64,000 bases of DNA, taken from positions 1 through 64,000 of the forward strand of contig NZ_SUME01000001.1 in assembly GCF_005048855.1 (NCBI RefSeq). The letters are read 5' to 3'. The position numbers and the translations under genes are program-made. Shown in pieces: positions 42,000 through 47,839 of this stretch (position 1 is its first letter; each line of letters starts with the position of its first letter). The stretch comes from Sphingobacterium olei. GTDB lineage: Bacteria; Bacteroidota; Bacteroidia; Sphingobacteriales; Sphingobacteriaceae. The notes beneath the pieces were generated by a model. The model was given only the letters and a program-made list of their open reading frames with translations. It was not told the DNA's origin and did no database searches.

Positions 42000-42854
42000 T
42001 TATTGGAACAACGAAGCTGCCCCTATAATTGCTGCTTTTTCTTCATATTGCCCAATGCTTATTTCGAATTCTCCGAAATAATTGTCCTTATCAATTAATT
42101 CCCATGCTTTGGCAATATTACCCCCAATAATAAATTTTTTACTTACATGCTCTCCACTGAAAAAATGAAGAAAATCTTTTAAATGCGTTCTGTATTCCGC
42201 AAGTAGCTGTTCGAATTCTTCAGTATTATTATGATTTTGAGCGATTTCCTTAAATCCTTTTTCTTTAGATCCCGACAGTGCTAAAAAACGATTTACAAAC
42301 CAACGCGTAACTAAATACTCTTCAAATATTGTATTTTTATAAGTGCTGCGCCAAAGGTCTGCATCGAAAGCTTTTGCATTATTAGACCATACAGCACTTC
42401 CTAATCCAGTGCCTAATGTAATCCCCAAAATCCGGTCTTCATTATTTCGCTTTGATGCAAATACTTCTCCTTGGAGAAAGGCCGCCGCATCATTGATATA
42501 GCGAATTTCAATATGCTTATCCTTTAAGCCACTTAAGATGCCTTCTGTCGTATTCAGTTTATAAATGCTATCGTACTTATTTTGTCCCTTCATCAACGCG
42601 ATCCCATTTTCATAATCAAAGGGGCCGGGCATGGCGATGCCTATCTGTTTTATTTCTTGGTTAAACTCATTAAGACAATTTTGTATGTTATCCGCCCAAT
42701 ATTGAAAAATCGATTTAGCATTTTCTTGCGAATTAAAAGAAATACGTTTGATTGTATTAGATAAGATTTCCCATGTATCCTCAACTACAATAGCGGAGGT
42801 AATATGTGTACCTCCGATATCGCATGCTAGTATATAATTTTTATTGTTAGACAT
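42000..42854 (-). CDS. ROK family sugar kinase
   Basis: The 284-residue protein has the ROK start [16 protein letters not shown] (phosphate-binding), [38 protein letters not shown] and [13 protein letters not shown]. It probably phosphorylates glucose or another hexose. A CxCGxxGCxE zinc motif is not visible. It ends 8 bases inside the start of aroC, so it is translationally coupled to chorismate synthase. Confidence 0.9.
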
Positions 42855-43938
42855 TCTTGTATGTTCTTTGCTTTAGTAAATGATCCGCGATAACCAAGGC
42901 CGCCATTGCTTCAACGATGATAACGGCACGTGGAACGACGCAGGGGTCATGTCTCCCTTTTCCAGAAATTGTAGTTTCTTCTTGAGAGAGATTTAACGTC
43001 GGTTGATCGCGCATAATGGTCGCTACGGGTTTAAATGCCACTTTAAAGGTAATGTCCATGCCATTTGAGATGCCCCCTTGTATACCTCCGGAATAGTTGG
43101 TATGTGTAATAATTTTATCGTTCTCGAAAGCAAAAATATCATTATGTTCAGAGCCTTTAAGCTGAGATCCTTCGAATCCTGATCCATATTCAAATCCATG
43201 TACTGCATTGATCCCCATCATTGCCTTGGCTAGGTCGGCATGCAATTTGTCGAATACAGGCTCACCCAATCCTACAGGTACATGGCGAATGATGGTCGAA
43301 ATCCGTCCACCAACTGTATCACCATCTTTGCGCACTCCGTCTATAAAATCTATCATTTCATTTGCGGTAGCTGGATCGGCACAGCGAGCGATATTGCTTT
43401 CGCGTAATTCGAGCAATGTTTTCAAATCTGTGGTGTCGAGATTAGGTGCTTCGATCGTTCCTACACCAGAGACATGAGCGAAGATTTCAATCCCGTATTG
43501 TTTTAAAAACAATTTTGCAATGGCCCCAGCAGCTACCCGCGCAGCGGTTTCGCGTGCCGAAGAACGGCCACCACCGCGATAATCGCGAATACCGTATTTC
43601 ATTTGGTAGGTGTAGTCAGCATGCGACGGACGATACTTATCCATGATATGCGAGTAATCTTTTGAACGCTGATCTTCGTTGGGAATAACAATAGCTATGG
43701 GCGTACCGGTCGATTTTCCTTCGAAAACGCCAGATAGAAATTGAGCTGTATCGCTTTCTTTTCGTTGTGTAGTTATTTTGGATTGACCCGGTTTTCTCTT
43801 GTCAAGTTCTGACTGAATGAATTCTTCATCAATCTCAATATTTGGAGGGCAGCCATCTAAAATAACCCCAATAGCTGCTCCGTGGGATTCGCCAAAAGTT
43901 GTAATTTTAAAGATGTTGCCAAATGAATTTCCTGCCAT
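42847..43938 (-). CDS. aroC: Chorismate synthase
   Basis: The 363-residue protein begins with [29 protein letters not shown] and has [27 protein letters not shown]. It has [21 protein letters not shown] and [11 protein letters not shown] near the end. It converts 5-enolpyruvylshikimate-3-phosphate to chorismate with reduced FMN. It is on the same strand as aroA but separated by 85 bases, so it may have a separate promoter or read through from the aromatic operon. Confidence 0.97.
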
Positions 43939-44023: not shown

Positions 44024-45274
44024 CTACTCCGTAATCTGAAAACCTTGCCCCGCAAGGTGCTTCCAATATATGGGGTACGATTTTTCTACAACCTGAGGTT
44101 CTAATATGGTAATTTGATTAAAGACTAACGCAAGGGGAGCAAATGCCATGGCCATGCGGTGATCTTCATAGGTCGAGAATGATACGGCTCCTGGATCCTT
44201 CACATTTTCTGTAGTCAGATAATACATTTCGTTTTCTGCTGTTAGCCTCGCTCCAAATTTTGAAATTTCATTTTGAAGTGCTGCAATGCGATCCGTTTCT
44301 TTAATTTTTAATGTTTCGAGCCCCGTAAAAGACACGTTTCTTTTCAGTGCAGCAGCTACTACAACAACCGTTTGGGCTAAATCAGGGCATTCTTTAAAGT
44401 CGAATAGTGATTTGTTTGAATCAACACTTACTTTCTTAAGGTGTATACCTTTAGTTGTGAATGTTGTGTCGACGCCGAAATGGTTCATGATTTCGGCAAT
44501 GGCAATATCCCCCTGTAAACTATTTCGCTTCAGGCCGGGAAGAAAAATTTCACCATTTTCCGAAAGTGCTACTATGGCATACCAATACGAAGCTGCACTC
44601 CAGTCAGGTTCTACATACAGCACGGATTCTTGATGCTTTTGGGGGGCAATATGAATTGTATTACCTGTCCATTCGTGCGAGATGCCGGCTTCTTTTAACA
44701 TATCCAATGTCATGGTTACATAGGGCCTAGACGTTAGCTCTCCTTCAATGTCGATGATTAATCCCTTTTTTAACGCGGACGCGATCAAAAGAAGAGAAGA
44801 AATATATTGACTGCTTACATTACCTTTGATAGTTACTTTGTCTTTGCCCTGAAACATTCTTCCTTCAATATGAAGAGGAGGGAAGCCTGATTTGCTCGTA
44901 TAATGTATATCTGCTCCGATACTTTTCAACGCATCTACCAAGATGCCAATTGGACGTTGCTGCATACGCTCTGTGCCTGTAAGAATAAAATTCCCTTCAA
45001 GTAGATTGAGGTATGAGGTTAAAAAGCGCATGGCCGTACCTGCCGGTCCGATGTCAATAATTTTTTGTTTTGAGCTATCTCCATGAGCTTGCATTAATGC
45101 CCTACCTAAAATAGCTGTATCAGCGGCTTCAGAGAGATTTTCAACTTTTACTTTGCTTTCACTCAAAGCCTGTATAATAAGAGCACGGTTGCTCTCTGAT
45201 TTAGAACCAGTGAGTTGAACCGTGCCACTTACTTGTTTTGTTGGATGTGAAAGCTTAATGCTTATCTCATTCAT
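44024..45274 (-). CDS. aroA: 3-phosphoshikimate 1-carboxyvinyltransferase (EPSP synthase)
   Basis: The 416-residue EPSP synthase has VQLTGSKSESNRALIIQALS, GPAGTAMRFLTSYLNLLEGNF, ERMQQRPIGILVDALKSIGA and ECPDLAQTVVVVAAALK. The C-terminal TYEDHRMAMAFAPLAL segment is also present. It is EPSP synthase of the shikimate pathway. Its start overlaps the stop of the upstream DAHP synthase gene by one base, so it belongs to the pheA-led operon. Confidence 0.96.
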   Translation of the reverse strand: MNEISIKLSHPTKQVSGTVQLTGSKSESNRALIIQALSESKVKVENLSEAADTAILGRALMQAHGDSSKQKIIDIGPAGTAMRFLTSYLNLLEGNFILTGTERMQQRPIGILVDALKSIGADIHYTSKSGFPPLHIEGRMFQGKDKVTIKGNVSSQYISSLLLIASALKKGLIIDIEGELTSRPYVTMTLDMLKEAGISHEWTGNTIHIAPQKHQESVLYVEPDWSAASYWYAIVALSENGEIFLPGLKRNSLQGDIAIAEIMNHFGVDTTFTTKGIHLKKVSVDSNKSLFDFKECPDLAQTVVVVAAALKRNVSFTGLETLKIKETDRIAALQNEISKFGARLTAENEMYYLTTENVKDPGAVSFSTYEDHRMAMAFAPLALVFNQITILEPQVVEKSYPIYWKHLAGQGFQITE

Positions 45275-46380
45275 TATGCCTCTGCTGGTGAATTAGTGTT
45301 CATGATTTCGTTTTGCTTACGAATAGACTCGTTATGAAGCAATTCCAAGTATTTTACGGCAAAATCTTCACTTATGCTTAATGCTTTAGCCAATTGAACA
45401 CGTTTCTGAACGATTTCATCCCAACGATTTACTTGAAGGATCGTTACATTATTATCTCTTTTGAATTCGCCAATTTTCTCTGCAATTTTCATACGGTCAC
45501 CGATCTGTTTGATGATTTGGTCATCTAATTTATCTATTTGTTGACGCAATTCAGCCAATTTATCTTCAAAAGCAGGGTTGTTGGATTCTGCACGACGTAC
45601 AGAAACATGATCTAACAGATCCGCTAACGCAGCAGGAGTAACTTGTTGTTTAGCATCCGTCCATGCTACTGATGGGTCAATATGTGACTCGATGATTAAT
45701 CCCTGCATATCCATGTCTAAAGCTTTTTGCGTGATATAAGGAATTAGCTCACGGTTACCACAGATATGACTTGGGTCATTAATGATAGGGAGATCGGGTG
45801 CAATGGTTTTCAATTGAATTGCTAAATCCCACATCGGTTCATTACGGAAGGCCGTTTTTTCATAAGAAGAGAACCCTCTGTGGATAGCTCCAATCTTTCT
45901 GATACCAGCACGGTTTACACGTTCTAAGGCACCTACCCACAATGATAAATCGGGATTCACTGGGTTTTTAATTAATACAGGAACGTCAACACCTTGTAAT
46001 GCATCTGCAATTTCTTGGACAGTGAATGGATTAGCCGTAGAACGAGCACCGATCCACAGAATGTCAACACCAGCTGCTAAAGCTTCTTCCACGTGTTTTG
46101 CAGTAGCTACTTCTGTAGCTGTTAACAAACCTGTCTCTTCTTTTGCCCTTTTTAACCACTCTAAACCTATACTTCCGATACCTTCAAATTCTCCGGGACG
46201 CGTACGCGGTTTCCAGATACCTGCACGTAGTACATTTACTTTGCCTGTATTTGCTAACAAGTGTGCAGTCGAAACCAATTGTTCTTCAGTTTCTGCACTA
46301 CAAGGTCCTGCAATGATTAAAGGCTTATCGCCAGTATCGATCCATGATTTTAAAGGAAGGATGTCTAATGAATGTTTCAT
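45274..46380 (-). CDS. Bifunctional DAHP synthase / chorismate mutase
   Basis: The 368-residue protein has a class I DAHP synthase domain (about 1-260). It shows IIAGPCSAETEEQLVSTAHLL, VLRAGIWKPRTRPGEFEGIG, GARSTANPF, PVLIKNPVNPDLSLWVGALERV and INDPSHICGNRELIPY. A C-terminal AroQ chorismate mutase (about 275-355) contains LAELRQQIDKLDDQIIKQI and RMKIAEKIGEFK. It makes the first shikimate intermediate and converts chorismate to prephenate. It lies between pheA and aroA and is controlled by the attenuator at 47268-47396. Confidence 0.95.
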   Translation of the reverse strand: MKHSLDILPLKSWIDTGDKPLIIAGPCSAETEEQLVSTAHLLANTGKVNVLRAGIWKPRTRPGEFEGIGSIGLEWLKRAKEETGLLTATEVATAKHVEEALAAGVDILWIGARSTANPFTVQEIADALQGVDVPVLIKNPVNPDLSLWVGALERVNRAGIRKIGAIHRGFSSYEKTAFRNEPMWDLAIQLKTIAPDLPIINDPSHICGNRELIPYITQKALDMDMQGLIIESHIDPSVAWTDAKQQVTPAALADLLDHVSVRRAESNNPAFEDKLAELRQQIDKLDDQIIKQIGDRMKIAEKIGEFKRDNNVTILQVNRWDEIVQKRVQLAKALSISEDFAVKYLELLHNESIRKQNEIMNTNSPAEA

Positions 46381-46424: not shown

Positions 46425-47249
46425 TTATACTTTTTCATTTTTAATGTATTCGCCCATAATGCTGAAATTGACCGTGTGTTTAAGCACCTTGCGGATAGCA
46501 GCATCATAATCAGCTTGTTTTTTCCATTCTACATCAACGTAGAAATCGTACTCATTTCGACGACCAACAACCGGCATGGATTGAATCTTGCTTAAATTTA
46601 CATGCTGCTCTGCAAAACACTGTAATACACTAGCTAATGAGCCTACAGAGTTTCCCGTCTGGAATGATAAAGATGCTTTGTTTGCATTCTTTTGTTCCAC
46701 GACTTCGTTGGATAATACGAGGAATCGGGTGGCATTTTTCTTGTGTGTCTCTATGCGTTTTTCTAGAATATTCAACCCGTAAATTTTAGCCGCGAATTCA
46801 CTTGCAATAGCGGCAGTTGTGGTCAACTTCTCTTCTTTGATCCGCTTTGCACAGCCTGCTGTGTCCATTCCCTCACGGATCGCCCAATCCGGGTGGTCAC
46901 TTAAGAATTCATCGCATTGACGGATAGCGATAGGGTGAGATTCAACGGTTCTGATATCGCTGAGTTTTACACCGGGTAAGGCTAACAAATTTTGCTGGAT
47001 ATTTAAGTGTACCTCTCCAATGATATGAAATCTATAATCTCTTAATAAGTTATAGTTTGGAAGAATACTCCCAGCGATTGAATTTTCAATAGCCATTACT
47101 ACATAATCTGCTTTTCCGTGTTTAAGCATCTCACAGGTTTTCTTGAAGGATTCACACTCAATCGTTTCGATATCTTTTCCGAAATATTTGAATGCGGCCT
47201 CTTCATGAAAAGATGCTTTTACGCCTTGGATTGCAATTTTTATACTCAT
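46425..47249 (-). CDS. pheA: Prephenate dehydratase
   Basis: The 274-residue protein starts KIAIQGVKASFHEEAAFKYFG and has the PDT signatures DYVVMAIENSIAGSILPNYNLL, VESHPIAIRQCDEFL, TTAAIASEFAAKIYGLN and NATRFLVLS. A C-terminal ACT domain (about 195-272, with GSLASVLQCFAEQHVNLSKIQSMPV) gives phenylalanine feedback control. It decarboxylates and dehydrates prephenate to phenylpyruvate. It is the first structural gene after the Phe/Tyr leader attenuator. Confidence 0.97.
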   Translation of the reverse strand: MSIKIAIQGVKASFHEEAAFKYFGKDIETIECESFKKTCEMLKHGKADYVVMAIENSIAGSILPNYNLLRDYRFHIIGEVHLNIQQNLLALPGVKLSDIRTVESHPIAIRQCDEFLSDHPDWAIREGMDTAGCAKRIKEEKLTTTAAIASEFAAKIYGLNILEKRIETHKKNATRFLVLSNEVVEQKNANKASLSFQTGNSVGSLASVLQCFAEQHVNLSKIQSMPVVGRRNEYDFYVDVEWKKQADYDAAIRKVLKHTVNFSIMGEYIKNEKV

Positions 47250-47267: not shown

Positions 47268-47299
47268 AAAAACGAAAAGTCCCGTTTCATTTCGGGACT
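47268..47299 (-). terminator. Attenuator terminator of the pheA operon
   Basis: On the minus strand, AGTCCCG and CGGGACT form a 7-bp stem around AAATGAAA, followed by TTTTCGTTTTT. It lies 20 bases before pheA, after the leader peptide gene, and its left arm can pair alternatively with GGGAC at 47333-47337. Confidence 0.85.
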
Positions 47300-47337
47300 A
47301 TCTATATGTTGTGCTGCTACAATGCTATATTCGTCCC
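47300..47337 (-). promoter_or_regulatory. Antiterminator and anti-antiterminator segments of the pheA leader
   Basis: GGGAC on the minus strand (47333-47337) can pair with GTCCC (47294-47298), destroying the terminator. TTGTAGC (47316-47322) is exactly complementary to GCTACAA inside the leader peptide codons (47381-47387). These give the mutually exclusive pairings expected of a classical attenuator. Confidence 0.75.
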
Positions 47338-47342
47338 TGCTC

Positions 47343-47396
47343 TTATTTAGGATAATAAAAGGAATAAAAAAAAGTATATGTTGTAGCGTTATGCAT
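47343..47396 (-). CDS. pheL: Phe/Tyr leader peptide of the pheA operon
   Basis: ATG 47396 opens a 17-codon frame reading MHNATTYTFFYSFYYPK and ending TAA at 47343-47345. Seven of 17 residues are aromatic (three Phe, four Tyr), clustered in TYTFFYSFYY. It is followed by the alternative pairings and terminator described separately, and then by pheA, DAHP synthase/chorismate mutase and aroA. Ribosome stalling at these codons when charged tRNA-Phe or tRNA-Tyr is scarce would favour the antiterminator. A -7 motif TACCTTTG lies 19 bases upstream. Confidence 0.82.
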   Translation of the reverse strand: MHNATTYTFFYSFYYPK

Positions 47397-47414
47397 GTCT
47401 CTGATTTGTTGATC

Positions 47415-47422
47415 CAAAGGTA
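47415..47422 (-). promoter_or_regulatory. Promoter of the pheA leader (-7 TACCTTTG)
   Basis: On the minus strand TACCTTTG matches TAnnTTTG, and CTTG (three of four matches to the -33 TTTG) lies 20 bases upstream. Transcription would start about 10 bases before the leader peptide ATG. Confidence 0.65.
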
Positions 47423-47839
47423 ATATCAATAAAATTATTATGCAAGTTTTTTTAAAATTATTTCTTAAATAATTGGTTATTATCTGTTGTTTTTATTGAT
47501 AAAAATGGCGTTAAATTTATATTGTTTTAGTGTTTTTTTTTGTTGTTTTTATTGTTAAATATCTTAAAAATAGATAATTAAATTTTTTATTATGTTGTTT
47601 TTTTATATATTTTTAACAATTTTATTGAGTATTTTAAGTGATATTTTTATTAAAAAAAGTGTAAAAAATTATTGATTTTTTTTATGATATTTTAAATGTA
47701 TATACGTTTTATTTTTGAAAATTTGGATGAATCAATATGAGATTAATGTATATGTTGGCAAAAAAAGAAAGAGATATGAAATAATAAACCGTCTTAATTT
47801 GTAGAATTTTTGTACTATTGATGCCTAATAATTTTGTAA
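47423..47839. other. Very AT-rich intergenic region, T-rich on the plus strand
   Basis: This stretch between the pheA promoter and a transporter gene is almost entirely A and T with long T-runs on the plus strand (for example around 47530-47600). No frame of note and no RNA gene is visible. On the minus strand it is an A-tract-rich region directly upstream of the pheA promoter and could act as an UP-like or bent-DNA element. Confidence 0.5.

Follow-up and report, generated by a model that had tools for sequence, protein, structure and literature searches.

A predicted Phe/Tyr transcription attenuator in front of the pheA-DAHP synthase operon of Sphingobacterium olei and its relatives

The operon pheA-DAHP synthase/chorismate mutase-aroA-aroC of Sphingobacterium olei is preceded by an element that we interpret, with a probability of about 0.9, as a ribosome-mediated transcription attenuator responding to Phe and Tyr. 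The predicted attenuator lies on the minus strand of the window, the stretch of 64,000 nucleotides analyzed here (contig NZ_SUME01000001.1, positions 1 to 64,000), and likely opens the operon upon scarcity of charged Phe- or Tyr-tRNA. An earlier note on this DNA had proposed such control, and it is still the best reading, as a prediction, in view of the conserved leader and terminator, the helices kept across sequence changes, and the computed switch. If this is true, expression of the sole DAHP synthase detected in this genome is controlled at the element, as is the corresponding operon in most of the relatives that we examined.

All parts named in the earlier note, namely, the promoter, a 17-residue leader with seven aromatic codons, the RNA arms, and the terminator, can be read directly on the minus strand. 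Together with its promoter, which is of the Bacteroidota type, the attenuator occupies positions 47268-47446 in the order CTTG-N20-TACCTTTG, leader ORF, GGGAC, TTGTAGC, AGTCCCG-loop-CGGGACT, T-rich tract, and pheA. The features are as follows.

47443..47446, minus strand: -33 promoter element CTTG (TTTG-like), from the sequence
47415..47422, minus strand: -7 promoter element TACCTTTG (TAnnTTTG), from the sequence
47343..47396, minus strand: leader peptide ORF, MHNATTYTFFYSFYYPK plus stop TAA, 17 codons, from the sequence
47381..47387, minus strand: segment 1, GCTACAA, predicted partner of TTGTAGC, from the sequence and pairing tests
47352..47378, minus strand: control codons Tyr7 to Tyr15 (3 Phe, 4 Tyr), from the sequence and aromatic conservation per position
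47333..47337, minus strand: 5' half of segment 2, GGGAC, antiterminator arm, from the sequence and arm tests in relatives
47316..47322, minus strand: 3' half of segment 2, TTGTAGC, predicted to pair with the leader, from the sequence and pairing tests
47293..47299, minus strand: segment 3, AGTCCCG, 5' arm of the terminator and 3' arm of the antiterminator, from the sequence
47278..47284, minus strand: segment 4, CGGGACT, 3' arm of the terminator, from the sequence
47268..47277, minus strand: T-rich tract of the terminator, TTTCGTTTTT, from the sequence
46425..47249, minus strand: pheA, prephenate dehydratase, start at 47249 (PF00800, E 8.6e-60)
45274..46380, minus strand: DAHP synthase/chorismate mutase fusion (PF00793 and PF01817)
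44024..45274, minus strand: aroA, EPSP synthase (TIGR01356, above cut-off)
42847..43938, minus strand: aroC, chorismate synthase (TIGR00033, above cut-off)
42000..42854, minus strand: ROK family protein gene (PF00480), overlapping the end of aroC

The fusion is the only DAHP synthase found in the genome: besides it, the sole further match to PF00793 is KDO8P synthase, and type II DAHP synthase (PF01474) had no match in this genome. The best prephenate dehydrogenase match lies elsewhere, adjoining an aminotransferase-like gene (the latter named by eye), and no leader was seen when 212 bases 5' of this gene and tyrA were inspected by eye. By PheA, the closest named relatives are Sphingobacterium species with at most 92% identity, a comparison from which the window genome's own records may have been excluded. 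As raw counts without a chance control, 118 of 147 loci have a TAnnTTTG box no more than 75 nt from the leader start, most commonly 18 nt 5' of the start codon, and 112 of the 118 loci having this -7 box carry a TTG-type element at a spacing of 16 to 23 nt. Judging from its overlap with aroC, the ROK gene is possibly the last gene of the operon.

The proposed mechanism is the classical one, as at E. coli trp, his, and pheA. The transcript would start about a dozen bases 5' of the leader, with a ribosome trailing RNA polymerase. A stall at a Phe or Tyr codon would cover segment 1 and leave segment 2 (GGGAC) free to catch the emerging segment 3 (GTCCC), which would block the 3:4 terminator. A ribosome at the stop codon would cover GGGAC, 3:4 would form, and transcription would end 18 nt 5' of pheA. 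Without ribosome loading, the leader would mostly hold segment 2 until segment 3 emerges, and termination would be favored. The earlier note had listed TTGTAGC as segment 2 and GGGAC as a separate arm; both are present but belong to a single segment 2, in which GGGAC, the 5' half, is predicted to pair with the terminator arm and TTGTAGC, the 3' half, with the leader.

A predicted intrinsic terminator with its T-run indeed lies between the leader and the first gene; its distance from pheA is 18 nt (20 bases in the earlier note). The 141-nt leader region folds better than 200 of 200 dinucleotide shuffles (z -2.92). The antiterminator that would exclude the terminator, GGGAC:GTCCC, is a 5-bp helix in the window; its score of 14 stays below the 95% level of the shuffles (14.5), and it is not significant by itself. 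It is conservation in relatives that settles the arm.

For the relatives, we retrieved the pheA upstream regions and used one script to identify leader and terminator. Both were found in 38 of 38 genomes of the genus (every genus genome with a match), 70 of 73 genomes of other genera of the family (drawn from 116 other-genus family genomes with a match), 39 of 43 genomes within the class but outside the family, 6 of 20 outside the class (both of these sets being selected examples rather than every match), and 60 of the 80 named loci, a set that overlaps in part with the unnamed one and is not independent of it. The conservation of leader and arms, which the earlier note had put forward as a check, was borne out; when a strict antiterminator arm is also counted, the numbers are 25 of 38, 66 of 73, 30 of 43, 4 of 20, and 58 of 80, respectively. 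The three misses in the family (L098-L100) have a divergent pheA, 45-46% identical, with no DAHP synthase downstream. Dinucleotide shuffling of 40 loci from the genus and family, 10 times each, gave 400 controls, in which an aromatic leader appeared 61 times and a leader plus terminator not once. Leaders as dense as that of the window (at least 7 aromatic codons in 12) appeared 7 times. By its conservation in relatives, the predicted element as a whole is beyond chance.

The attenuator tracks DAHP synthase and not pheA as such. All 134 loci with a DAHP synthase downstream have leader and terminator before pheA, compared with 1 of 37 loci without one, a count in which 9 of 180 loci were too short to judge and which does not extend to the genus and other short loci. 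The operon led by pheA and holding a shared DAHP synthase is as described in the earlier note, whose reading is refined here by the link of the element to DAHP synthase. Assignment of the element to pheA was rejected: of the 37 loci lacking a downstream DAHP synthase, 36 do not have it before pheA, and three of these (L165-L167) carry it further up, before DAHP synthase. The three rearranged operons (L267, L268, and L269) have DAHP synthase first and pheA last, and an aromatic leader with terminator lies before DAHP synthase (example leader, MLITAAIYFTFFYFYFRSQSRIGAVYCLAKN). The three rearranged-operon genomes are from another family, with pheA behind aroA and a similar terminator at the operon front. 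In L268, another DAHP synthase gene lies 5' of the leader, and further aromatic ORFs elsewhere in L268 and L269 were set aside as not being in front of the operon. Among the 20 named loci that lack leader and terminator, a search of up to 4 kb upstream (less being available for L253, L255, L259, and L265) recovered the pair in 0 of 20, as did a search of the reverse strand (0 of 20).

The association with DAHP synthase would explain why the leader contains Tyr codons. Phe and Tyr codons are probably pooled because no DAHP synthase, the shared first enzyme, was found in the genome outside this operon, and a leader tuned to this entry enzyme likely has reason to read more than Phe. In the window, the aromatic codons Y7, F9, F10, Y11, F13, Y14, and Y15 make up 7 of 17, and a short leader ORF rich in codons for the end products is present in 38 of 38 genus genomes. 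The control region of 108 family leaders contains 28.3% Phe, 27.2% Tyr, and 3.0% Trp, so that about 58% of its residues are aromatic. Phe and Tyr swap at the same positions in these leaders (position -7: F 36, Y 29, W 20; position -6: Y 44, F 42, W 10). Both residues are present in the window and in all arm-passing leaders of the genus (25/25), the other genera (66/66), and the other families (30/30). A Trp codon occurs in the control region of 44 of the 108 family leaders, with 9 of 38 for the genus, versus 15% expected, assuming 1.2% Trp per residue. We left Trp sensing out of the main reading because TGG is also part of the 1:2 helix in some leaders.

Could the amino acids be sensed by a T-box, a riboswitch, or an RNA-binding protein, with the leader ORF being incidental? 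The terminator fits such a sensor, nothing further does, and we find the idea barely credible. The aromatic leader found in all 38 genus genomes argues against it, as does Rfam, whose models (including T-box, the Phe, Trp, and His leaders, and Bacteroid-trp) gave no match in the window at gathering score and no match in five further loci. Around the element, there were five sub-threshold matches, four of them to snoRNA families and one to an enterobacterial sRNA, the best with an E-value of 0.95.

The antiterminator arm was assessed in 194 distinct loci, taken from 261 loci read, of which 216 have leader and terminator; the arm statistics and the ribosome masking rest on a set of leaders starting with ATG, which misses those starting with GTG or TTG. 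The leaders of L057, L082, L212, and L229 begin in this way. The arm scored 19.7 on average versus 10.4 for shuffled spacers, passing the 95% shuffle threshold in 166 of 194 loci and the 99% threshold in 147 of 194, the window not being among these. The GGGAC antiterminator proposed earlier, not significant in the window alone, is supported by the relatives. A locus's own arms scored modestly better than arms swapped between loci (19.7 versus 16.9; mean percentile, 0.70), and the gain is modest because most loci share GGGAC. For the 50 loci whose arms differ from it, this percentile averaged 0.69; it was high in, for example, L024, L097, L152, L157, L158, and L172 and low in L032, L096, L132, L146, L161, L162, and L163. 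In L024, three arms have changed together (GGAAC/GTTCC/GGAAC).

In 165 of the 166 passing loci, the arm lies 4 to 17 nt past the last aromatic codon, and in 161 of 166 this distance is 7 to 14 nt. The leader stop codon shifts by lineage, from 5' of the arm to well beyond it. Since the stop codon moves while the distance between codons and arm holds, the relevant spacing appears to be that from the control codons to the arm. These observations also bear on an arrest peptide, in which the nascent aromatic chain itself would stall the ribosome, maybe with a free amino acid as the ligand, as in the case of tnaC. The leader is short and conserved, the core ends in three positions that are aromatic in all 108 family leaders (the final one by construction), and the RNA part would look identical. 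Against it stand the interchange of F, Y, and sometimes W at the same positions, residues after the core (often KSRD) that are encoded by the RNA arm, and a stop that falls before or after the arm depending on the lineage. We consider an arrest peptide very unlikely.

The alternative helices were followed in 106 aligned family sequences. The antiterminator 2:3 is paired in 91%, with double changes at 8 of 9 pairs, and the terminator 3:4 is paired in 91%, with double changes at 12 of 13 pairs; slid controls were paired in 17-59% with double changes at 4-6 of 9 pairs for 2:3 and in 25-68% with double changes at 4-7 of 13 pairs for 3:4. Counted as individual double-change cells, the terminator shows a clear excess (91 versus 10-37 in slid versions) and the antiterminator none (17 versus 9-20). 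The 1:2 helix between leader and segment 2 is the weakest of the helices, with 78% paired versus 24-53% in slid versions and double changes at 5 of 9 pairs versus 1-7. In a regional test, which was narrower and run after the general one, 49 of 106 sequences were above the 95% shuffle level for this helix; the general best-helix test, which is weak, gave 2 of 35 genus, 13 of 70 family, and 5 of 39 class loci.

The effect of ribosome position was computed by blocking the covered stretch and folding the transcript up to the terminator loop, for 165 loci (those of the 194 distinct loci with a passing arm) and, apart from these, for the window. The computation indicates that the ribosome position chooses between two structures: the mean probability of 2:3 pairing was 0.96 with the ribosome on aromatic codons versus 0.12 with the stop codon in the A site, and the switch had the expected direction in 157 of 165 loci. 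In the window, this probability was 1.00 for every codon from 2 to 16, dropped to 0.52 at codon 17, and reached 0.00 at the stop. It stayed at 1.00 at every aromatic codon with mask widths of 8-14 nt, and at the stop codon it was 0.54 with a width of 8 and 0.00 from 10 up. Without a ribosome, the mean 2:3 probability up to the terminator loop was 0.88, which argues against termination by default, and the stalled ribosome exceeded the no-ribosome value in just 121 of the 165 loci. As long as segment 3 has not been transcribed, segment 2 without a ribosome is paired upstream with a probability of 0.63 in the window and 0.77 on average (above 0.5 in 99 of 102 loci).

At equilibrium, the full-length terminator of the window wins at all ribosome positions (0.77-0.97). 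As in the classical model, antitermination therefore has to be kinetic. A terminator this strong in every state would also suit constitutive attenuation, in which the leader ORF would serve just to boost or insulate translation and would sense no amino acid. Under such an arrangement, neither the conserved helix 2:3 nor its distance from the final aromatic codon has a role, a control region with about 58% aromatic residues is poorly accounted for, and the link to DAHP synthase is left unexplained; we judge it highly improbable.

A wider alternative is a class-wide sensor of any aromatic amino acid, which would read Phe, Tyr, and, in many lineages, Trp as one pooled signal to meter the committed enzyme of the aromatic pathway. 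Such a sensor would have been present in the class ancestor and have followed DAHP synthase through rearrangements, with ribosomes keeping close to RNA polymerase. We give this proposal slightly better than even odds. Whether or not it extends so far, the Phe/Tyr attenuator suggests an RNA family that is absent from Rfam and has clear boundaries. Attenuation by leader peptides needs close coupling of transcription and translation, and the element could serve to probe this coupling in Bacteroidota, a phylum noted for lacking Shine-Dalgarno signals.

The attenuator of E. coli pheA has a leader rich in Phe. Our element resembles it in having a leader peptide with control codons, alternative helices, and a terminator before pheA. 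It differs in that Tyr codons are here as frequent as Phe codons, the operon holds a DAHP synthase, the promoter is of the Bacteroidota type, there is no Rfam match, and the arm overlaps the last leader codons in many relatives, although not in the window. The ilvGMEDA leader provides control by Ile, Val, and Leu; leaders of this type likewise pool codons for several end products of a branched pathway, in another pathway and another phylum, whereas the pooled codons here are those for Phe and Tyr. The Bacteroid-trp RNA motif (RF01692), a Trp leader, belongs to a different operon and had no gathering-score match to the window or to the region upstream of the genome's trpE.

Among the matches listed, which are largely from non-subscription literature, none describes a Phe/Tyr leader for a DAHP synthase of Bacteroidota. 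A 2010 survey by Lopatovskaya and others may touch on such leaders. The mechanism itself is known; what is new relative to the reports found is the wider distribution and the clearer target. The accessible portion of PMC9723704 describes, for pheA of Flavobacterium psychrophilum, a structured 5' element common to other Flavobacteriaceae and without Rfam hits, as well as clues for leader-peptide attenuation before amino acid operons. The earlier remark that such leaders are little described in Sphingobacteriaceae agrees with the matches listed, but a pheA 5' element had already been reported for Flavobacteriaceae (PMC9723704). The F. psychrophilum element shares with ours the gene, the phylum, and the lack of an Rfam hit, and the portion at hand gives no leader sequence, amino acid assignment, or DAHP synthase link; compared by description, the two are likely the same. 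Attenuation of pheA in E. coli and S. typhimurium is named in the part of PMC1183508 available to us. From the available part of PMC2864571, Bacteroid-trp is a likely cis-regulatory RNA of Bacteroidetes, and a "pheA" motif (Actinobacteria) and a Leu/phe leader (Lactococcus lactis) are listed as candidate cis-regulatory RNAs. The latter two are linked by name to Phe genes or codons and come from other phyla; the Rfam-listed Leu/phe leader had no match in the window, and the "pheA" motif is without an Rfam entry in the table of PMC2864571. Short ORFs reminiscent of attenuation leaders are reported for B. thetaiotaomicron in the accessible part of PMC7366714. The Phe/Tyr element is not mentioned in the available portions of PMC7366714, PMC4833913, PMC2864571, and PMC8305728, nor was it traced in that of PMC2965389.

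Two further leaders came to our attention. Upstream of hisG (L273; G000:C26 near 42000) lies MTYLFTHHVHFHHRQCGDM with five His residues, possibly a His leader, with no clear terminator by eye and no Rfam match at gathering score. Upstream of a trpE-like gene (L271; G000:C22 near 209460), a leader, MNTYQLWWWPEANRVGNNLFGI, has three Trp codons and is followed on its 3' side by the hairpin AAGCCCGAC/GTCGGGCTT and a T run, with no Rfam match at gathering score; this element is likely a Trp attenuator.
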